A stretch of 64,000 nt of DNA from Symbiodinium natans (lineage: Eukaryota > Sar > Dinophyceae > Suessiales > Symbiodiniaceae), in NCBI GenBank assembly GCA_905221605.1, contig CAJNDS010000713.1, positions 1 to 64,000 on the forward strand, given 5' to 3'. The position numbers and the translations under genes are program-made. This document shows positions 44,445 through 62,499 of this stretch, piece by piece; within the stretch, counting starts at the first letter, position 1, and every line of letters starts with the position of its first letter. Under the pieces are notes generated by a model that saw only the letters and a list, made by a program, of their open reading frames with translations, was not told the DNA's origin and did no database searches.

Positions 44445-47400
44445 TTAGCAGGTGTGTTTGTGAAGCACTCGCTTCTGGAAAAAGTAGCGCCGCTTTACAT
44501 GGCCCCAGCTGAGCTGGGGCAAGATGAGGATGTAGTGTCCCACTGGGCCGACCGTGCTTGTGAAGGCCAAACATGCCAGGAGGATGGAAGCTGGAAGCAG
44601 AAGCCCCGTAAAGTCCCAACTTAACAGGAAGATCAGAGATTGGAAAAGCTCCGTCATCCGGTCTCGGAAGAGGAAGTGGATGACATAGCAACCGAGCGTC
44701 GTGTTTCCCCACCATCTGGCGCTGACTGACCAGTAAGAAGTACCCAAAGCAAAAAGGGCCGGCTGCAAGGTTGTAGCCGCCAGCTCCACAACAAACCAGT
44801 TTGTATCGGCTCCACTCTCAAGCATGTCATTGGGGTAGTGGAACAGGGCCATGAACATACCTGGTGGTGACACATCACCCAGTGAGCTACTCTCTTTTCT
44901 CCATCTTCAACGAAACAATTGACGATCTTAAGACTCTTGAAGTCTTCTTTTCTCCCCCCCCCCCCCCCAGAATCGCAGGTTTGCTCCATCCTATCAAAAC
45001 GAACTCTGAGTAACCCGAGACCCTAAACAACTACAACTATGACACATGATGCAAAACTTCTGCAGCCGGGCTGCCCAGTATCATACTCCCCGCTGTGGCT
45101 GCAGACGCCCAGGTTGGGCCCCGTGGAAGCCGTGGGGATAGCCAGGCAACGATGCGGCGGAGGTAGTGGAAGCAAAACCTCTTCCAGAACTTCTCAAGGA
45201 CTTTTAGGGTTTAGGGTCCTAGGTTGTCGCATCTCAGCATCTCTAAGGAAGGTTGGGCGACTATATCGCAATGTGAAGGATATGCATATAGACCCGCGCC
45301 AATCTTCGACAGTCATTATGTTACATCACTCCTGCAGCACCAAGCCAGGAAGCACGTAGAAAGTGGCGTACCACTCAACCCAGCGAATCCACACCCAGCA
45401 GCCGTCCAGGAACCACGTGACAAAGAACCTTTTGGCTTTCGAACAGCGGCAAGGAAAGTCTCTACAGCAAGTTCAGCAAGTTCATTGCGGCTCGTTTTTT
45501 CGCCCTGTTGTCAACCTTCGGGCGTCGGGGGGGGGGGGGTTGCGGGTTCAAGGTTGGGATGTACAGGACTGCTTACCGTTGGGGCCTCTCTTGTCGGATG
45601 AGTGTCCGAGGTTTGGCTTCGGGCTTCAGAGTATTTGGGCTTGGCTGCTCTCACTTAACTCTTGAAGTTAGGCGCAAGGGCTGCGTGTTGCAGAGAAGGC
45701 TGAAAGGTTTGGAGGCTTCAAAGGCTACAGCATCTACTCGGAGTGTACTGGCGTTGGTGCCGTTAGCCCCAGATGAATCTTACGATTGGTCGGAGGGAGA
45801 AGGCGTCTCGGCCTCGCCATTAGGCCGACTTGCTGTGATGTGCTGTGATTCCTTCGTGGGCTGTTCTTGCACCCTCAACAGCATTTTCCCAGGCAGGTAG
45901 GCAAGAAGTCGGCAAGAGCTGCAATGCAAACACTGTATCCTGCAGTTGTGACGCCTCATTGCCGCCTCATTGCCTCGGACTGTCCAGCGTGAGCGAAGTT
46001 GGGCTTGCTGGTACCACACTGAAACTGCGCGTCAGGACCCCTAGAAGTCAGCAGGCGCGGTAGCGGCTCAGCGGGCATAACCCAGCGAGGAGCAAACAGT
46101 TGCCAAGCAGGATCACCCCCATCGAAATGGTAGATGTTGGCCGACAGCTGCGCGAAAGAGTCGGAAGTTCGCACAGCCACATTCTCTCCACACCAGATGC
46201 GGATTGCAGCGGCGATCGCTTCGCAGCAGCGCTCGCCACAGATCGCCAGGGGGTGGCGTCCAGGTGCAGGGACTTCGTGGAATTCTGCCTCTGCGAAACT
46301 GAAGACGATCACACCTTCACCTTCCGGCGCAGTCACCACTATGGGGCCGCGCTCACCTTGCAGCTCCACCAGCAAGAGCAACAAGACCTCCTGCGCACGT
46401 GGGAGAGCCATCTTCAGCTGCTGCCGCAGATGCCAAGCTTGGCCGAGCTCATGTGTACTGTTCACCATCCTCACAAACACGCGCGGGGCCGCCGCCGGCA
46501 CATCGCCCTGCCCAAGAAATCTTTGAGCTCGCCGTCTCATGTCATCGTGCGTACGTGGATCCTCCAGGTTGGCATGCCAGAAGCTGCCTCCCCAGCATGT
46601 TCCCAAGAACACGTCGTGTTCCTCCGCACACCGACGCTCTGTGTATGTCAAGAAGTCTTGAAACCCCACATTGATGCAGTGTACGATGCCCTGCAAGGAG
46701 CTGCGCGTCCAGTCAAAAGGGTAGGACTTCTTTCGTAGATCCAACAGCTGCAGTGCGTAGGTTGGTGCACAGTAGCAGCCAATACTCACAAACTCGGTGC
46801 GGTTGATGAACTCCGCGGCTTTCACGCCGTGCAGATTCAGAGCACTCCGGCGCTCCGGCGGCGTCATTTCCGCCCTGAAATGGCAGGCGTGCATGCTGGG
46901 ATCCTCCAAGTGTGCATCCCATTGAGCTTGCGACGGCACCTCGCGAACCTCCGGAGGTGGCTGGGGCCGCCACTCGGGAGCAGAGGCACTCAGCGTGCTT
47001 AGCGAACTTAGCGTACTCACGGTTTCCAACGCGTCGGCCGCCTGGCCCTTGTCGACCGTCTCCAACTTTTGGACCGTCTGCGCCTGATCCTCGTTCGAGT
47101 CAGGCACGCTAACCTCATCGCCGTTCGCCTCCTCCAGCAAGTTCCAGATCTCCGGCCCCAGCAACTTCCACAACTTCTCGCAGGCAGAAAGGAATTGACA
47201 TGCAGTGACACCAAATCCCATCGCCGGCAGCGCCACAGAGGTTGCAAATGCTGCCGATGCTGATGCCCAACCTCCACCTGGCGCAGCAATTGCAGCAAAC
47301 GAAATCGAAAGTGGCAGCGCGTCCATCACCATTGCTGATGTAATCTGGACGTGATGCTGCGCCAGTTCAGAAACTCAGGGCACCCCTCTAGACAGGAAAG

Positions 47401-49625: not shown

Positions 49626-50039
49626 CAGGGGCGACCGTTTCAGATGAAAGGACTTCAGGTTGGGCACGGTGAGCACGAACCCTATACCCGAAACCCTAGA
49701 GGTCGACGTTCGGGTTGCGGGTCCAGGGTTCCCCAAGGTTCCTCCAATGCAGGTTCGGGGCTCAGTAGCCTTTAGGGTTTAGGGTTTAGGGTTTGGGCTC
49801 GAGACTCGGTTTCCAGATGCGTGCGATGGACTTGTGTACATGAATGGGGCCCCCCCGCGTTGAGATGTTTGGGCTCGACCCTAAAACTTTTTTTTATGCA
49901 AATATATATAGCTCACCCCCCCCCAATGGACCCACCGCGGATGGCAGCCGAGTCCTAGCCAGATCAAGGCAAAAAACAACAAAACAAGAAACTAACAAAA
50001 ACCAACAAACCAAAAAAAACCAAAAAACCAAAAAAAACA
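49626..50039. other. no gene seen; A-rich tail into palindrome block
   Basis: Contains a TTTAGGG tract (49770-49793) and, from 49970, AAC/AAAAC-rich sequence leading into the palindrome array. Confidence 0.5.
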
Positions 50040-51020
50040 AAAAAAACAAAAAAACCATCTTTTCCAGAACTATGGGGCTGGGGCCTCCAAAAGATGGTTT
50101 TTTTGGTTTTCTCGAGAAAAAGATGGTTTTTTTGGTTCGAAACCATCTTTTTCTCGAGAAAAAGATGGTTTTTGAGCAGCCGCTCTTCTAAAAACCATCT
50201 TTTTCTCGAGATAAAGATGGTTTTACCAGGACAAGACCTCCAAAAACCATCTTTTTCTCGAGACAAAGATGGTTTTACCAGGACAAGACCTCCAAAAACC
50301 ATCTTTTTCTCGAGAAAAAGATGGTTTTTCCAGGACAAGATCTCCAAAAACCATCTTTTTCTCGAGAAAAAGATGGTTTTTCGAAGAGCGGCTGCTCAAA
50401 AACCATCTTTTTCTCGAGAAAAAGATGGTTTCGAACCAAAAAAACCATCTTTTTCTCGAGAAAACCAAAAAAACCATCTCTTGAAGGCCCCAGCCCCATA
50501 GTTTTGGAAAAGATGGTTTTTTTTGTTTTTTTTTTGTTTTTTTGGTTTTCTCGAGAAAAAGATGGTTTTTTGGTTCGAAACCATCTTTTTCTCGAGAAAA
50601 AGATTGTTTTGAGCAACCATCCTTCGAAAAACCATCTTTTTCTCGAGAAAAAGATGGTTTTACCAGGAGAAGACCTCCAAAAACCATCTTTTTCTCGAGA
50701 AAAAGATGGTTTTACCAGGACAAGACCTCCGGAAACCATCTTTTTCTCGAGAAAAAGATGGTTTTTCCAGGGTAAGATCTCTAAAAACCATCTTTTTCTC
50801 GAGAAAAAGATGGTTTTTCGAAGAGCGGCTGCTCAAAAACCATCTTTTTCTCGAGAAAAAGATGGTTTCGAACCAAAAAAACCATCTTTTTCTCGAGAAA
50901 ACCAAAAAAACAATCTTTTGGAGGCCCCAGCCCCATAGTTTTGGAAAAGATTGTTTTTTTGTTTTTTTTTTTGTTTTTTTTGGTTTTTTTGGTTTTCTCG
51001 AGAAAAAGATGGTTAAGTTT
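50040..51020. repeat. hierarchical palindrome array (52-bp units, about 440-bp blocks)
   Basis: The unit is a perfect palindrome of about 36 bp: ACCATCTTTTTCTCGAG followed by its mirror GAAAAAGATGGT. CTCGAG centres lie at 50111, 50153, 50205, 50257, 50309, 50361, 50413, 50455 and again at 50550, 50591, 50642, 50694, 50746, 50797, 50848, about 50890 and about 50997, giving a 52-bp spacing inside each block. The block borders are also mirror images (CTATGGGGCTGGGGCCT and AGGCCCCAGCCCCATAG; GAGCAGCCGCTCTTC and GAAGAGCGGCTGCTC), so each block is a large inverted repeat built of smaller ones, and the block is then repeated in tandem. The Phe/Lys/Ser-rich frames on both strands are artefacts of this structure. 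Confidence 0.97.
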
Positions 51021-52430
51021 TAGGGGTTTAAGCCTCATGCACTACAGGGTTATAAGGTTCTAATCCTATAGGTATTGCCTTAACCTTTAACCCTAAACCT
51101 TTAACTTTAAACCCTGCAGGGTTAACCCCGTGAGAAATTTAGAGATAGACCCCGAAAAGACCCTAAACCTTCTTACAGGGTGTAATGGTTTAAAAACCGA
51201 TAGGACATGTATACCTTCAGCGCCTGTAGGGTTCAAGCCTTTGAACGTGCTAGACCCCTATAGGGTGCTAAGGTTCTGACCCTAAAGGGTTTAGGATTAA
51301 GGCTTAAATGCCCTCTAGGTTTAAATGCCTAAGTCTTAAACCCCAAACCTTTAAACCTTCATCCTATGGGGTTTGAAGGTCAAGGGTTTAGGCTTGATTG
51401 CCGAGGGCTTTAGGGTCCTGACCCTAGAGGGTTTAGGGTTAAGGAATAGATGCGTAAACCTTAAACCCTTAAGGTTTAAACTCTATGGGCTTAGGGGGCT
51501 TAGGTTTTTTTAAACCCTAAGCCTTTAAACCTTCACACTACAGAGTTTAGAGGTGTTAAGGGTGACAAATTGATTACATACTTAGCTTTAAATGCCTGAA
51601 TCTTAAACCCCAAACCTTTAAACCTTAACCCTATAGGGTTTAAAGGTTAAGGGCTTAGTGTTAATCGCTGTCTTAGGTTTAAATGTCTGAATCTTAAACC
51701 CTAAAACTTTAAACCTTCACCCTATAGGGTTTAAAGGTTAAGGGTTTAGGTTGAATCGTCAGCTTGGATTTAAATGTCTAAGTAAAGAATCCTAAACCTT
51801 TAAATCTCATCCCTATGGGGTTTAAGGTTAAGGGTTCAATATGAACTGCCGGCATAGGTCTAAATACCTAAACCTTAAACTTAAACCCCAAACCTTTAAA
51901 TATCTTTACCCTATAGGGTTTAAAGGTTAGAGGCTTAGCGTAAATTGCCGGAATAGGTTTAAATGCCTAAATCTTAAGCCCGAAACCTTTAAACCTTAGC
52001 CCAACAGGGTTTAAAGGTTAAGGGTTTAAAATTAGTTGCAGGCTTAATTAGGTTTAAATGCCTACGTCTTATATCCTAAACCTTTAAAAATCTTAACCCT
52101 ATAGGGTTTAAAGGTTAAGGGCTTGGCTACAGGTTTAAATGGCTAAATATTAAACCCTAAGCCTCTAAACTTTAACCCTACAGGGTTTAAAGGTTAAGGG
52201 TTTAAAATTAGTTGCAGGCTTAGGTTTAAATGCCTACATCTTAAACCCTAAACCTGTAAAAATCTCAACCCGATAGAATTTAAAGGTTAAGGGCTTAGCT
52301 TTAATTACCGGCATAGGTTCAAATGCCTAAATCTTAAACCCTTAACCTTTAAACCTTAACCCTACAGGGTTTAAAGGTTAAGGTTTTTTTTTGCAGGCTT
52401 AGGTTTAAATGCCTAGATCTTAAATTATAA
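51021..52430. repeat. 91-bp tandem array with internal dyad (about 14 copies)
   Basis: The word CTATAGGGTTTAAAGG or a variant recurs at 51631, 51722, 51813, 51911, 52002, 52099, 52178, 52271 and 52362, mostly 91 bp apart. Units contain AAACCTTTAAACCTTAACCC, then its near mirror GGGTTTAAAGGTTAAGGG, so each can fold as a hairpin. The left part (51021-51560) is more degenerate. Confidence 0.95.
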
Positions 52431-52599
52431 ACAAAAGCCAACAGAAAGAAAAACCCTCCGTGCGTGTGTGAGAGGGTGAATTAAGGAATACAGTCAAAAA
52501 TCCGGTCACCGGAAAATCACCAGACAGCATAGGTTTTATCGGTATTTGCGGTACTTTTGCAAAGATCAAGGCCCGCGGTGGGTCCATATATAGAGACAT

Positions 52600-58700: not shown

Positions 58701-61221
58701 CAACCTCACTCAGAAACTTACCAGGCGAAGGCTCTCTCCAGGCGTGTTGGGTGCAGCCGCTTGCAATGGCCTCTCGTCCACGGCCATCAGGAACCTGAGT
58801 TGCCCGTATGGCGTGCGCAGCCGGGACTTTCTCGTAAAGAAGAGACCACTGAGAAGGGACTCCTAGAAAGGAGGAAATAGATGTGGTGTTTTCGGGTGCA
58901 GGGCTCAAGGTCTCACGATGAAGCGGCAGATCCGATTCTAGAGCCCGGTATCACAAACCTGAACCCAAACCCGTGGCAAAAAGTGGAACCCTCCAACTTC
59001 AGAATGGTTTACGAAAATAGGCGTACCTTATTAGGGTCCTGATTTTAAGGGAATCCTACTATTTGGGGGGCCTATTTTCGGGGTCCCCTAAGTGTCGTAA
59101 ACCCCCATATCCAAACAAACAATCGGACTCCCACCGAGCAGCACGTCAGCATATGGCTGCGGGAGCCCAGCTGGTACGCGGCTGGGGAAGAGCTTCTCAT
59201 CGACGCCCTGCTCCGGCACCTCGCAAGCATCCCAGGTGATTACGCGTTGCCCCCAAGTTGTTGTGGCTTCACTCTTGGGCACCTTCTATCCCCCTACACC
59301 CGCCCTTTCAGGGATTCTAGACTGTACATATTGAATTCCCTCACTCCATAGAACGAGTAAGCTATTGCTCTGGACCCACGCCGAAGCCTTGTAGATGGTG
59401 CAGGAACTCTCCGACGCTCCATAGAAGTTTCCTGAAGGGTTTTGTTTCAGGGTTCAGAGCTTTCGACCCAAGAGCCACCTAGGAACAAAAGGGTGCCCTG
59501 TTTGGTTTAAAGTGGCTTATGAGTGAACCGGAACCCCTAAAAAGAAGCAGAATATCGGCCCACCCTGGGTCCTAGGGGGAGGTCAGCGACCCTTGACTTT
59601 CCAGCCCTGGCTCGGGGCCAATGGATGTACAGGGCAGTTGCTTTGAAGTTCGGATCCCCCTTTTGTGGGGGAAATCTTGTTCATTGCATATAGAGGTTCT
59701 AGATACCCACATGATTCGGGGGAATCCTGATTTAAAGCAACCAGCCCATCGTCTGTCTAGACTCGGGCTTTCCAGAAACCCTTTGAAGGTGCAGCGGAGC
59801 AGCGGAGGGTGGCGGCGAGGTGCTTCGTGGAGACCACACGGTTGGCCAAGGCTGTGGGCAGAGGCTCACCCACAGTGGTGATGTGCTCGAGAGAGCTGAG
59901 CAAGCGATCACCCGCATGCAGTTGATGAACATCCAGAAGGAGGTCAAGGACCTGTCTTGAGTCAATAACACAAGGACAGCCAAAAGAAAAGCATGACCAG
60001 CTCTGGATTACCTGACGCCTCACACGGCCTGGCTTGATTGCACAGGGGCAGGGCAGGCAAACGCAACGCTCAGACTGCTAAGATCCTCACAGATGGAGTG
60101 ATCATCAAGACGCTCACGTGGTGCTGGTGGACCACCTTCGCCATGTAGTCCGGGCTTTTGTGGCCGTCGCTGCTAGCAACAACGAGAGATCCGCCCCGAA
60201 GCAAAGCTGGAAAGAACTCCCACTCCATCACTGCCCAGAAGTAGGGGGACTTCAACAGTTGCACCGTGTGCTCTGTAACGCCGTGCTCTTCTGCCCAGAA
60301 CCATGCTCCATGTAGGAGGTGGCGGTGGTCGTAAATAATACCTTTCGGTGCCCCTGTGGTGCCAGAGGTGTAGATGAGCATCGCCACCTCCGAGGTCGTC
60401 GGCCGCTTCCGCTGTGGCTGCTGTTGCGCAGATGCTGCCGGCGCATTGGTCACTTTGAAGGACATGGATGCCGCCTCAGTGCCGGCGAGGAGCAGGGGGA
60501 GGCCAGCCTCCCGCGCGAGATGCGTGAAACGGTCAGAGTCGGCAAGGAGCACCCGGGCCTGGCTATGCTGGAGTAGCACGGCCACCCGGCTCTCAGGCGC
60601 ATCTGCATCGATCGGCAAGTAGCCCCCGCCGCTTGCAAGCACACCCAGGACTGCCACGACCTGGGCACAGCTCCGCTCCATGCAAAGCGCAGCGATCCGG
60701 CCGGGCTCCAGCCCCAGCTGCTGTAGGGCACTCGCCAGCTCCGCTACGGCTCCTTGCAGCTGCGCGTAGGTCACGAAGATGCTGGGAAAAGACGGGACGA
60801 TCAACGCGGTGGCCTCCGCCGACTGCTCTGCCCGCTCTAAGATCAGCTCGTGGATGAGCTGGGTTTCGGGGTAACGGGGTCTTGGCCCCGAAGCCGAAAA
60901 TGTACGCGACTCGAGATTCCCCATCTCCTCATCTGCTACTTTGACTTTGGCTGCCACAATCCTTTTCTGGCATGGATGAGTGCAAAAGTGCACGGATGCA
61001 ACGATACCAAGCCAGACCGATGAGTACAAGAAGAAGAACACAAGCTTGTGTGGGAGTGTCCACGCAGTGTTCGGATCACGGTAGTCTGGCAGATACGGCC
61101 AGCCCAGTTCGGCTATTTGCTGCTCAGACTTGTACGTAAAGTTGAGCGCCGGTTGCGAGTCCTCTGCTTCTCCGCATGGGAGCAAAGCAATGCTCAGCAG
61201 CAAGCAAGGCAGTCGAGCCAT
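52790..61221 (-). CDS. NRPS-like adenylation enzyme with signal peptide and membrane anchor
   Basis: Activates a carboxylic or amino acid as its adenylate. Exon 1 (60091-61221) starts MARLPCLLLSIALLPCGEAE (signal peptide), then a membrane segment (KLVFFFLYSSVWLGIVASV), then the adenylation domain with A3 core LIYTSGTTGAPKGI. Further exons: 59838-59951 (VLDLLLDVHQL, LEHITTVGEPLPTALANR), 59143 to about 59282 (SEATTTW, FPSRVPAGLPQPYADV), 58722-58794 (VDERPLQAAAPNTPGE), 57752-57812 (A7 motif GRLYATGDLGRW), 56589-56642 (A8 motif VNGVRVEPEEIESALLKF), 53342-53435 (LLSEDLQKHCRAVLAPAYLP), about 52790-52841 (A10 motif LPSLPNGKVNFAQLP with the catalytic Lys). Donors include GT and GC. All core motifs are present, so the domain is probably active. 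At least one exon (the 'YG' region, 59.3-59.8 kb) and others between 56.6 and 53.4 kb remain unassigned. I see no carrier domain. It may continue into the acyltransferase exons from 49048 as one gene. Confidence 0.8.
52848..52887. repeat. TTTAGGG tract at an intron acceptor
   Basis: Five to six units lie only about 6 bp upstream (in reading direction) of the acceptor of the A10-motif exon. Confidence 0.95.
53528..54035. repeat. duplicated segment, copy 1 (about 500 bp)
   Basis: From GAGGATGAAAAATGCCCTCAACC to GGGCAGCTTCCACTGAAA this is nearly identical to 54966-55480, with a few substitutions and small indels. Both copies keep a plus-strand frame (MALLSKAFPTTQQAPDC onward, stop after HTRPTV) that has no recognised domain. 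It lies in an intron of the adenylation gene. Confidence 0.95.
54036..54780. repeat. segment between the duplicated copies, with TCTAGC-type repeats
   Basis: Holds a cluster of CTTTTCTAGC/CTTCTCTAGC units at 54330-54402 and AGCTCTTCTTAGCTCTTCC units at 54645-54690. GGGACCCAATC and its partner GGGTCCCTC mark both sides (near 54070 and 54750). Confidence 0.7.
54966..55480. repeat. duplicated segment, copy 2
   Basis: Partner of 53528-54035. It is preceded by CGACGACGA-type trinucleotide repeats (54880-54970). Both the gap before it and the sequence after it carry ATGTACAAGCAATC and CGGTTCAGGGTTCAGGG, so the duplicated unit was larger than the copied 500 bp. Confidence 0.95.
55724..55968. repeat. 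facing telomere-like tracts
   Basis: CCCTAAA units at 55728-55770 and TTTAGGG units at 55904-55966 are in opposite orientation, about 130 bp apart, the same arrangement and spacing as at 11632-11850. Confidence 0.95.
56963..57098. mobile_element. GAAGTAGGGT-family inverted-repeat element, copy 2
   Basis: The left end ATTATGAAGTAGGGTATG and right end AATATAAACCCTACTTCACAT are inverted copies. The interior has GACACCGGGTATATACACTCACC, as in the copy at 32142. In an intron of the adenylation gene. Confidence 0.8.
57168..57590. repeat. telomere-like field with higher-order GGATGGTTTAGG units
   Basis: CCCTAAA words (57168-57245) are followed by TTTAGGG units (57366-57424) and then a longer unit TAGGATGGTTTA...GGGTTTCGCGT...AGGGTTTAGG that is repeated with changes up to about 57590. 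Confidence 0.85.
58300..58408. repeat. TTTAGGG telomere-like array
   Basis: About 15 units with two variants. In an intron of the adenylation gene. Confidence 0.97.
59005..59108. mobile_element. GGGTTTACGA-family inverted-repeat element, copy in adenylation gene
   Basis: The left end TGGTTTACGAAAATAGG and right end GTGTCGTAAACCCCCAT are inverted copies, with the family interior GTACCTTATTAGGGTCCT and GGGAATCCTACTATTTGGGG. It begins about 35 bp after the donor of exon 59143-59282. Confidence 0.8.
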
Positions 61222-62499
61222 GCTATGATATGGGCTACTGGAACCTAGCAGACGAAGTAGTACTTCTCAGATTACACCAGCTGGTTCTGGTTAGCGGCAC
61301 CAGTACTTGAAGATGACTACGGCTACGGTCCTCATTTTAGTGGCAGGGGGCACTATAGGAATGATATTGCAGACTCTTGGCATTCGTCTCCGCCTTCTCC
61401 CCCAAGGCAGGAAGCTTGTCTGGGAACACTGCTGTTGGTTCACAAGCACAGGCTTCAACATCTGCGAAACCCGGTTGAACTCACAGTGTCCTGCTCATAA
61501 CAGGGTGAGCCATTGTTGCTCGGTGAACTGCTACTTTCGTCCTGTGTGTGGTGCACCTTATAGCCCATTAGGCGAGTGTGAGCCCTAGCGGCTCAAAACT
61601 CCCGTGGTATCTGGATTTCAGACTCTAGGACGCATGTGACTTAGCTGGCGATCTCAAGGTACTCTCCTTTTTGTCAACGCCGGTGGAGTTGACGAGCCAA
61701 CGGGGTGAAATACACTGGCCTGCAGGGGGATCAGGTCATGCAGGAAGGTTCCCCCCAAAAAATGCCGAATCACAGCCTGGCAGTTACTTCCGAAGATGCC
61801 ATCCCGCACAGTCCCAAGCCATGCCCTCGTCGAGGATGCTTCTGTACGCAACCCAAGCCCCCAGAAGCGAACGTCGGCCGGCTGCGCCGTGAACTCTCTC
61901 CATGTTGAGGACGTTTAGGAAACCCGCGCGCTGGTAGCAGAGCAATGGGACGCGTCCTTCGGCGTTTGCAATCCAGCCTGGTGTGTGTTCAGTCCGAGCT
62001 GGCAAATGTGGCTGCGTGGTGCAGATAGCGGCCCAGGGGGGTGTTGCCTCAGTTGGAGGGGCCTTCGTGCAGAGAATCTGATACGGGGGCCTGACAGATT
62101 ACATGACGAGGTCTAGGAACATGCTAGCGGCTAGCGTTGTGTTGGATCTTTGGATCTGGCTTGAGAAAAGACGTGAGCCGCCGCAGCAGCAGAACGGGGC
62201 AGTCGCCAAGCAAGAGCCCGAAACCCAAGCTCCCAAACACTCTCTCCCGGAATCAGCCAGTGGTTCCTACTCCTGCGTACTCACCCGCTGTTAATTCCTC
62301 TCCTGGCTACTGAATTGCAGCCGAAAGCGATCGGGGCTGTCCGTCACAGACACCAAATCATCCGAGCCTGCACCGCTGTTTTTGTTTCTCTGGGCTGGGC
62401 TTCACGCCCCCCAAACCTGATCCCAAGGACGCAAGATGGACCTGTTCCTGTGCTGAGGGAGTTATGCTGCTACTACCAATGCATGCTGCTGGCAGATTG
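61222..62499. other. 5' flank of the adenylation gene; one unassigned minus-strand frame
   Basis: The frame at 61784-62005 minus (EGRVPLLCYQRAGFLNVLN, MERVHGAAGRRSLLGAWVAY) is open and compositionally exon-like. It could be a 3' exon of the gene above 62.5 kb. No promoter motif is recognised, and dinoflagellate promoters rarely have a TATA box. Confidence 0.35.

Follow-up and report, generated by a model that had tools for sequence, protein, structure and literature searches.

Merlin elements, as described in the available part of PMC8101967, have GG ends, 8-9-bp target duplications and an IS1595-type transposase. Sy.m_F1, a Merlin family of Symbiodinium microadriaticum treated in that part of the paper, is 2.57 kb long with 51-bp ends, 8-bp duplications and a transposase gene; its 5' 52-bp tandem repeat is duplicated in the opposite orientation, and no clear target consensus is reported there (PMC8101967). 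According to the accessible portions of the respective reports, the plant Mutator-like elements MuTAnT (PMC4486113), SaTar (PMC5907723) and Ac-mMITE (PMC8449440) use (TA)n sites and have inverted ends and 9-10-bp duplications, and Micron of rice is mentioned in these texts among the elements that target TA microsatellites. Tetris, in the sections of PMC4079207 available, is a non-autonomous foldback element with internal tandem repeats in inverted order within long terminal inverted repeats. The introners of Amoebophrya are introns with 8-20-nt inverted and 3-5-nt direct repeats (PMC7789003, available part).

Here we analysed a window of 64,000 nucleotides from Symbiodinium natans (contig CAJNDS010000713.1, positions 1 to 64,000), and we consider it probable that one of its repeats is a copy of F1, a young non-autonomous DNA transposon which inherited a large hairpin as a sub-terminal module and is moved in trans. 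F1 as described below is novel as a variant, while its kind, the non-autonomous DNA transposon, is already known. The sequence-only reading of this DNA had been able to name no known satellite with such a layout. No published description of the F1 family was found in a literature search that had subscription papers outside its scope, which agrees with that statement, but the structure proved to lie within a dispersed element bounded by terminal inverted repeats, and not to be a satellite or a stand-alone array.

F1 and its relatives share with Sy.m_F1 the genus, the size, the 8-bp duplication, a 52-bp repeat in opposite orientations and a divergent transposase that matches profiles poorly; compared by description and not by end sequence, F1 differs in being non-coding, in ending in poly-C, in its insertion into TA microsatellites and in its giant nested palindromes (PMC8101967, available part). 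The ends and duplication of F1 recall those of Merlin. A duplication of 8 bp, which 18 of 23 copies permit, agrees with the 8-9 bp of Merlin; of the two F1 ends, one begins with GG and the other with GC. Since the transposase-like proteins associated with F2 and F4 ends (see below) had no match to DDE_Tnp_IS1595 (PF12762), we have not filed F1 as Merlin. As far as the accessible text goes, MuTAnT likewise folds back (PMC4486113), and SaTars (PMC5907723) and Ac-mMITEs (PMC8449440) lie side by side without nesting, as F1 does at contigs C125, C149, C2109, C794 and C318b; the 9-10-bp duplications of these three differ from the 8 bp that suits F1, and the MULEs examined in this genome carry other ends. 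With Tetris, in the available account, F1 shares non-autonomy, inverted tandem repeats and the capacity to fold back (PMC4079207), and the foldback-type element Galileo, from the partial description available, can be likened to it for inverted internal repeats and fold-back. Foldback elements carry tandem repeats at each end, within long terminal inverted repeats, whereas the ends of F1 are ~30 bp, its repeats are internal and its palindrome lies nearer one end. The introners resemble F1 in their dinoflagellate host, hairpin formation and transposon-like spread, whereas F1 is a ~2.65-kb element in TA microsatellites (PMC7789003, available part).

The sequence-only reading had described, at 50040-51020, 36-bp perfect palindromes in 52-bp units inside mirror-symmetric blocks of about 440 bp, tandemly doubled. 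Its count of 17 CTCGAG-centred palindromes in that stretch was borne out (50111 to 51002). The perfect length is 36 bp in 3 of the 17, 32-36 bp in 9 and at least 20 bp in 10; the remaining 7 are perfect over 8-14 bp, so the figure of 36 bp applies to the best units and not to the others. Tandem Repeats Finder returned a period of 52 (14.6 copies) and a period of 437 (2.0 copies, 94% matches), in agreement with the 52-bp units and the doubled blocks. The 190-bp half arms of block 1 are 90.5% self-complementary, those of block 2 68% when compared ungapped. The inverted-repeat finder that had been proposed as a check gave arms of 247 nt for block 1 (92%) and of 390 nt for the whole two-block array (86%), and the direct orientation of the inner spacers and the inversion of the block borders were seen as claimed. 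Long hairpins had also been foreseen; as a single strand, block 1 is predicted to fold into one hairpin of ~440 nt, with z of about -33 as DNA and about -39 as RNA and an RNA energy of -331 kcal/mol. Markov resampling of the stretch (n=200) produced no palindrome of 20 bp or more, the longest being 18 bp. Because of this, together with the 52- and 437-bp periods and the hairpin fold, we regard the palindrome layout as real. Elsewhere in the window there are six palindrome centres of at least 20 bp, all AT-rich and three of them overlapping.

An adenylation and an acyltransferase exon had been expected to be joined across this site, which our scan did not support. An AMP-binding (PF00501) frame lies at 60070-61266 on the minus strand (E 7.4e-48), and none of the four minus-strand frames between 40.7 and 48.8 kb contained an acyltransferase (nine window frames scanned in all). 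The open reading frames of the array itself (up to 248 aa) were rejected as coding, having only a weak, sub-threshold FHA match, and a viral origin was rejected because an exact search of viral contigs for the 28-bp palindrome gave 0 matches. No Rfam match was found in the window. The window further contains a minisatellite with a ~70-bp unit at its left end (22-924), many interstitial telomere-like (TTTAGGG)n tracts (11213-58407) and, at 45956-47374 on the minus strand, a 472-aa frame matching DUF1796 (putative papain-like cysteine peptidase, E 2.7e-15).

The array does lie at 50040-51020, but it is only the inner part of a repeat spanning 49902 to 52587. Among six longer copies, homology to the window covers this span in one piece in four (from 49906 in one of them) and in two pieces in a fifth, and ends at 51456 in the sixth; outside the span the flanks of the copies differ. 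The ends of the element are inverted, GCTCACC(C)nAATGGACCCACCGCGG at the 5' side and CCGCGGTGGGTCCATTG(G)nTGACC at the 3' side. The ~1.4 kb after the array, made of telomere-like units partly in a 91-bp period, belongs to the same element, and folded as DNA these repeats gave a z of -11.8 against 20 shuffles. F1 is thus a dispersed element of ~2.65 kb with inverted ends of ~30 bp, of which the window copy occupies 49911-52587 (Table 1).

Table 1. Anatomy of the F1 copy, in positions of the 64,000-nt window
Feature	Position	Strand	Remark
AT-repeat target beside 5' end	49902-49910		(TA)n or a comparable AT-rich repeat borders the copies
5' terminal inverted repeat GCTCACCCCCCCCCAATGGACCCACCGCGG	49911-49940	+	
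A-rich (AACCAAAA)n tract	49970-50054	+	shared by the 30-copy alignment consensus
Block 1, giant nested palindrome	50060-50501		GC-rich caps 50070-50085 and 50486-50501
Block 2, more diverged second block copy	50502-50938		cap 50923-50938
Incomplete third unit with a T-rich tract and the final CTCGAG palindrome	50939-51014	+	
Telomere-like repeats	51026-52440	+	91-bp period at 51510-52424; inside the shared element
3' unique sub-terminal region	52441-52572	+	
3' terminal inverted repeat remnant (CCGCGGTGGGTCCAT)	52573-52587	-	window copy without the outer poly-G part

The absence of any other copy had been named as a result that would count against the array. This is not the case, for the half-palindrome occurs at 1454 + 1463 genome places (control 0). 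A search with the block gave 175 candidate places, 40 of which were scored; the top-scoring matches lay on separate contigs and were 99% identical, their second blocks reaching 94-97%. The F1 end 19-mer was found at 125 + 121 places (control 0). Among the 100 of these places listed, 80 form 40 facing plus/minus pairs and 20 are unpaired, and no wrongly facing neighbour was seen within 15 kb. The two ends are 2.5-2.8 kb apart in 32 of the pairs listed, 3.0-3.1 kb in three and 2.0-2.3 kb in two; the other three measure 1.08, 1.37 and 12.2 kb. The 12.2-kb pair was considered as an autonomous copy and rejected, being an F1 copy that is split by a nested ~9.3-kb retroelement (C602:731851-744450, L045/L046), whose 1266-aa frame matches RVT_1 (E 1.2e-7). 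The copy number is estimated at 107-125, the figure of ~107 full copies following from 27.3 half-palindrome matches per copy read against the genome total. The genome bears the mark of a dinoflagellate nuclear genome, since the 21-mer of the dinoflagellate spliced leader has 104 + 101 exact places in it (control 0).

Thirty copies on 29 contigs were read through the blocks. Two blocks are present in 28 of them, with slight differences inside the blocks in several, and three in the other two (L032 and L038, on contigs C1280 and C125), which are two of the three ~3-kb pairs. From size alone, the 2.0-2.3-kb pairs would fit copies with a single block. At C1358 the array is absent and at C794 only a remnant is left, both between proper F1 ends. 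The 30 best-matching copies, the window copy included, carry 0.18-2.5% substitutions against their consensus over ~1.1 kb, and since they were picked by similarity to block 1, their identity is to be read as an upper figure. As these copies differ by 0.2-2.5% from the consensus, the spread of F1 is taken to be recent.

The copies sit in (TA)n microsatellites or similar AT-rich repeats. The target duplication was examined in 24 copies, and both flanks were readable in 23 (C1358 failed). A duplication of 8 bp is allowed in 18 of the 23, bearing in mind that pure (TA)n sites also permit other even lengths; 8 bp is the sole solution at C1247 and one of three (1, 2 or 8) at C602, and five copies do not fit it (C217, C318b, C879, C1280 and C2359). 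The assignment of 8 bp is well supported. Inverted ends that bound a dispersed unit, together with a duplication of fixed length, are the marks of a class II (TIR) element. Other poly-C-ended elements abut F1 within one microsatellite, namely F3 at C125 and C149 and F2 at C2109, and further abutting ends are F2-like at C794 and of F1 type at C318b.

These neighbours belong to related families with ends like those of F1 in similar target sites (F2 and F3), to which a fourth, F4, was added through the end pattern GGTCACC(C)nCA-not-A. This pattern has 53 + 51 places (controls 0 and 2), and ten loci cut out with it comprised seven F2 and three F4 copies. Only about 15 terminal bases are common to F1 and F2/F4. 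F2 is 2.84 kb long in the single copy read end to end, and its inner-end 22-mer occurs at 34 + 35 places (control 0). Each of the eight F2 copies read contains a single giant palindrome, which spans about 320-800, has a self-complementarity of 83-96% and is split in L055; its nested units are centred on CCATGG, its caps read CCATGGAGCCGGGAGG, and the L029 palindrome folds with a z of -39. Near one end of the only full F3 copy (2.15 kb), a 268-bp inverted stretch (80%) forms a hairpin in a fold computed without shuffle control. In the 1.5-4 kb read of three F4 copies, short of the second end, no comparable giant palindrome was found; the inverted features seen are telomere-like arms of 99 bp in L052 and, 3.9 kb into C54, a 111-bp stretch (81%). 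Beside its F4-type end, C54 (L054/L062) also carries decayed coding-like sequence.

The F4 copy of C1 holds a piece of coding sequence. An 87-aa query taken from it gave 77 genome matches, and for 28 of these the surrounding frame is open over 411-534 aa. At C177, an F4-type end in (TA)n, slightly off the pattern, accompanies a 461-aa frame in which, by our own motif reading, a zinc-ribbon pattern may be recognised together with three blocks in the arrangement of a DDE transposase; one of the three blocks varies between copies. The protein had no match among Pfam and NCBIfam profiles, in a tblastn search against plasmids, or in profile-profile comparison with two of the genome's IS1595-type proteins. 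Past the F4 transposase-like frame, L096:2876-4098 has frames on the minus strand that include a P-loop-like stretch (AAA match, weak, E 0.019) and perhaps form a second gene of the F4 element.

How this gene is placed relative to a palindrome was read at C1972 (1.48 kb, from one end). The ~810 bp from the F2 end, palindrome included, are 96.4% identical to F2, and the transposase-like frame ends ~280 bp past the F2-like stretch on the opposite strand, so that F2-type end, giant palindrome and the 3' part of the transposase-like gene follow in a row, with the palindrome 260-280 bp beyond the 3' end of the gene. At C2197 the F2 end and the transposase match are 1062 bp apart by match positions, against 1060 bp at C1972. 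Because each of the two matches has one in-frame stop, neither gene is intact. With 100 of the 104 end places listed, 2 of 75 transposase-like places lie within 2.5 kb of the end motif (expected 0.05), and C177 and C2197 are further such places. F2 and F4 ends thus adjoin the transposase-like gene in copies read from one end; no F1-ended element carrying a transposase gene was seen, and the link of F1 to the transposase passes via F2 and F4.

Two other proteins were considered as the mover of F1 and rejected. For MULEs, none of the eight loci with a PF10551 genome match has a C/G run beside (TA)n within 1.5 kb, nor do two 8-kb stretches. For the IS1595-type proteins (20 PF12762 genome matches), no C/G run/(TA)n was found in the 1.8 kb upstream of two of them. 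As separate observations, these MULEs (L065-L074, several of the eight matches near-identical) are recently copied, with ~52-bp tandem repeats preceding the transposase and more tandem repeats on the opposite side, and are possibly foldback-type MULEs; PF12762 matches at C1374, C1969, C2359, C2487, C1112 and C97 are equal in score, and five of the six lie in frames open over 604-606 aa; this group is possibly an active family.

The upkeep of symmetry was examined by comparing the two arms. Over 19 aligned bases the F1 and F2 caps differ at four, and the same four differences, complemented, recur on the other arm. In L056, one of eight F2 blocks, the 26-bp centre is exactly inverted. In L053 and L056 a right-arm tract is the exact complement of the left-arm tract, which is not so in the other six blocks; the comparison does not fix the direction of change. 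An inverted F1 spacer is present in none of the 30 young copies and occurs in the more diverged C602 and C794. Covariation analysis gave 18 one-sided and 0 two-sided changes for F1 block 1 and 67 and 1 for block 2, so there is no covariation signal inside F1. F2 had 58 one-sided and 9 two-sided changes; of the nine, a single change pair that L057 has in common with L061 accounts for four, and the inverted centre of L056 for three. RNAalifold found changes kept on both sides in 6 of 210 F2 pairs. Paired positions vary less than unpaired ones in F1 block 1 (18/12117 against 10/1200) and slightly less in block 2 (71/10973 against 17/1877), the 5' unique part of F1 varying at 14/1404. Within block 2 the perfect 28-mer units vary less (12/4139) than the remainder (76/8711). 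In F2 the paired positions vary more (78/3674) than the flanking element (17/2343 and 24/1488), and the unpaired value (20/153) is inflated because of the inverted centre of L056. Collectively, the palindrome data would fit arm-to-arm conversion and crossing-over within the palindrome, without demonstrating selection for structure.

These data also bear on a role in cis, in which the palindrome would be required for transposition as a binding array or as an extruded cruciform for transposase or replication machinery. A like module lies nearer one end in F1, F2, F3 and the coding-linked C1972, and the lower variation of paired positions in F1 points the same way; however, block 1 of F1 served as the query that chose the copies, F2 shows the reverse pattern, and arm conversion alone could keep the arms alike. 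The arrayless C1358 and the remnant at C794 sit between proper ends, although the array may have been lost there after insertion, and the parts of F4 read contain no such block. We therefore regard a requirement in cis as rather doubtful. Less probable still, and unlikely overall, is that the blocks serve as a source of hairpin RNA, that is, that they are transcribed into long dsRNA which is diced and silences F1 or neighbouring genes. The predicted ~440-nt RNA hairpin would suit such a role, as would C1972, where the palindrome stands just beyond the 3' end of the gene, and read-through would therefore yield a hairpin; nevertheless, arm-to-arm exchange at the DNA level also explains the symmetry. 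That the array is satellite or centromere-like tandem DNA dispersed by chance is very improbable: its tandem repetition at 52 and 437 bp and unit matches in the thousands are what a satellite would show, yet none of the 30 copies read has more than three blocks, the blocks occupy one set position in a ~2.65-kb unit bounded by inverted ends, and on five contigs (100 matches listed) the arrays lie inside F1 or within ~2.1 kb of its ends. Long palindromes are difficult to assemble, but collapsed or invented repeats can be practically dismissed: 28 of the 30 copies read (29 contigs, differing flanks) show the two-block layout, and the S. natans assembly is, in the available part of PMC8045281, among those with long reads.

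The reading we prefer is accordingly that of a young non-autonomous transposon with an inherited hairpin. A transposase acting on the common end GGTCACC(C)n would move F1 in trans, and the candidate is the zinc-ribbon/DDE-like protein from elements with the same end type. The palindrome would be an ancestral sub-terminal module passed to non-coding families and not a newly made satellite; it looks like a built-in module of the transposon lineage because related elements hold a matching giant hairpin, one of them running into part of the transposase-like gene. Its symmetry would be upheld by arm-to-arm exchange, which we infer because of the inverted centre, the tracts on which the two arms agree in only part of the copies and the mirrored cap changes, and the number of blocks may change via slippage or unequal exchange.

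Going further, we put forward tentatively, as possible but not as probable, that the giant nested palindrome between the end and the transposase gene is a working part whose structure is kept while its sequence changes, through arm conversion, selection or both. It might, for instance, form a cruciform of which transposition makes use, or a hairpin by which the transcripts of the transposase are terminated or silenced, and the non-coding families would have inherited and amplified the palindrome. If the hairpin does work in transposition or silencing, this would be directly testable. As to the organism, non-coding, microsatellite-targeting dinoflagellate elements are now linked to a transposase-like family without a Pfam or NCBIfam match. 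Long palindromes are usually unstable. Here they have spread and are still largely symmetrical in at least three transposon families within a single genome, which offers a natural series for arm-to-arm conversion and centre inversion in small palindromes.
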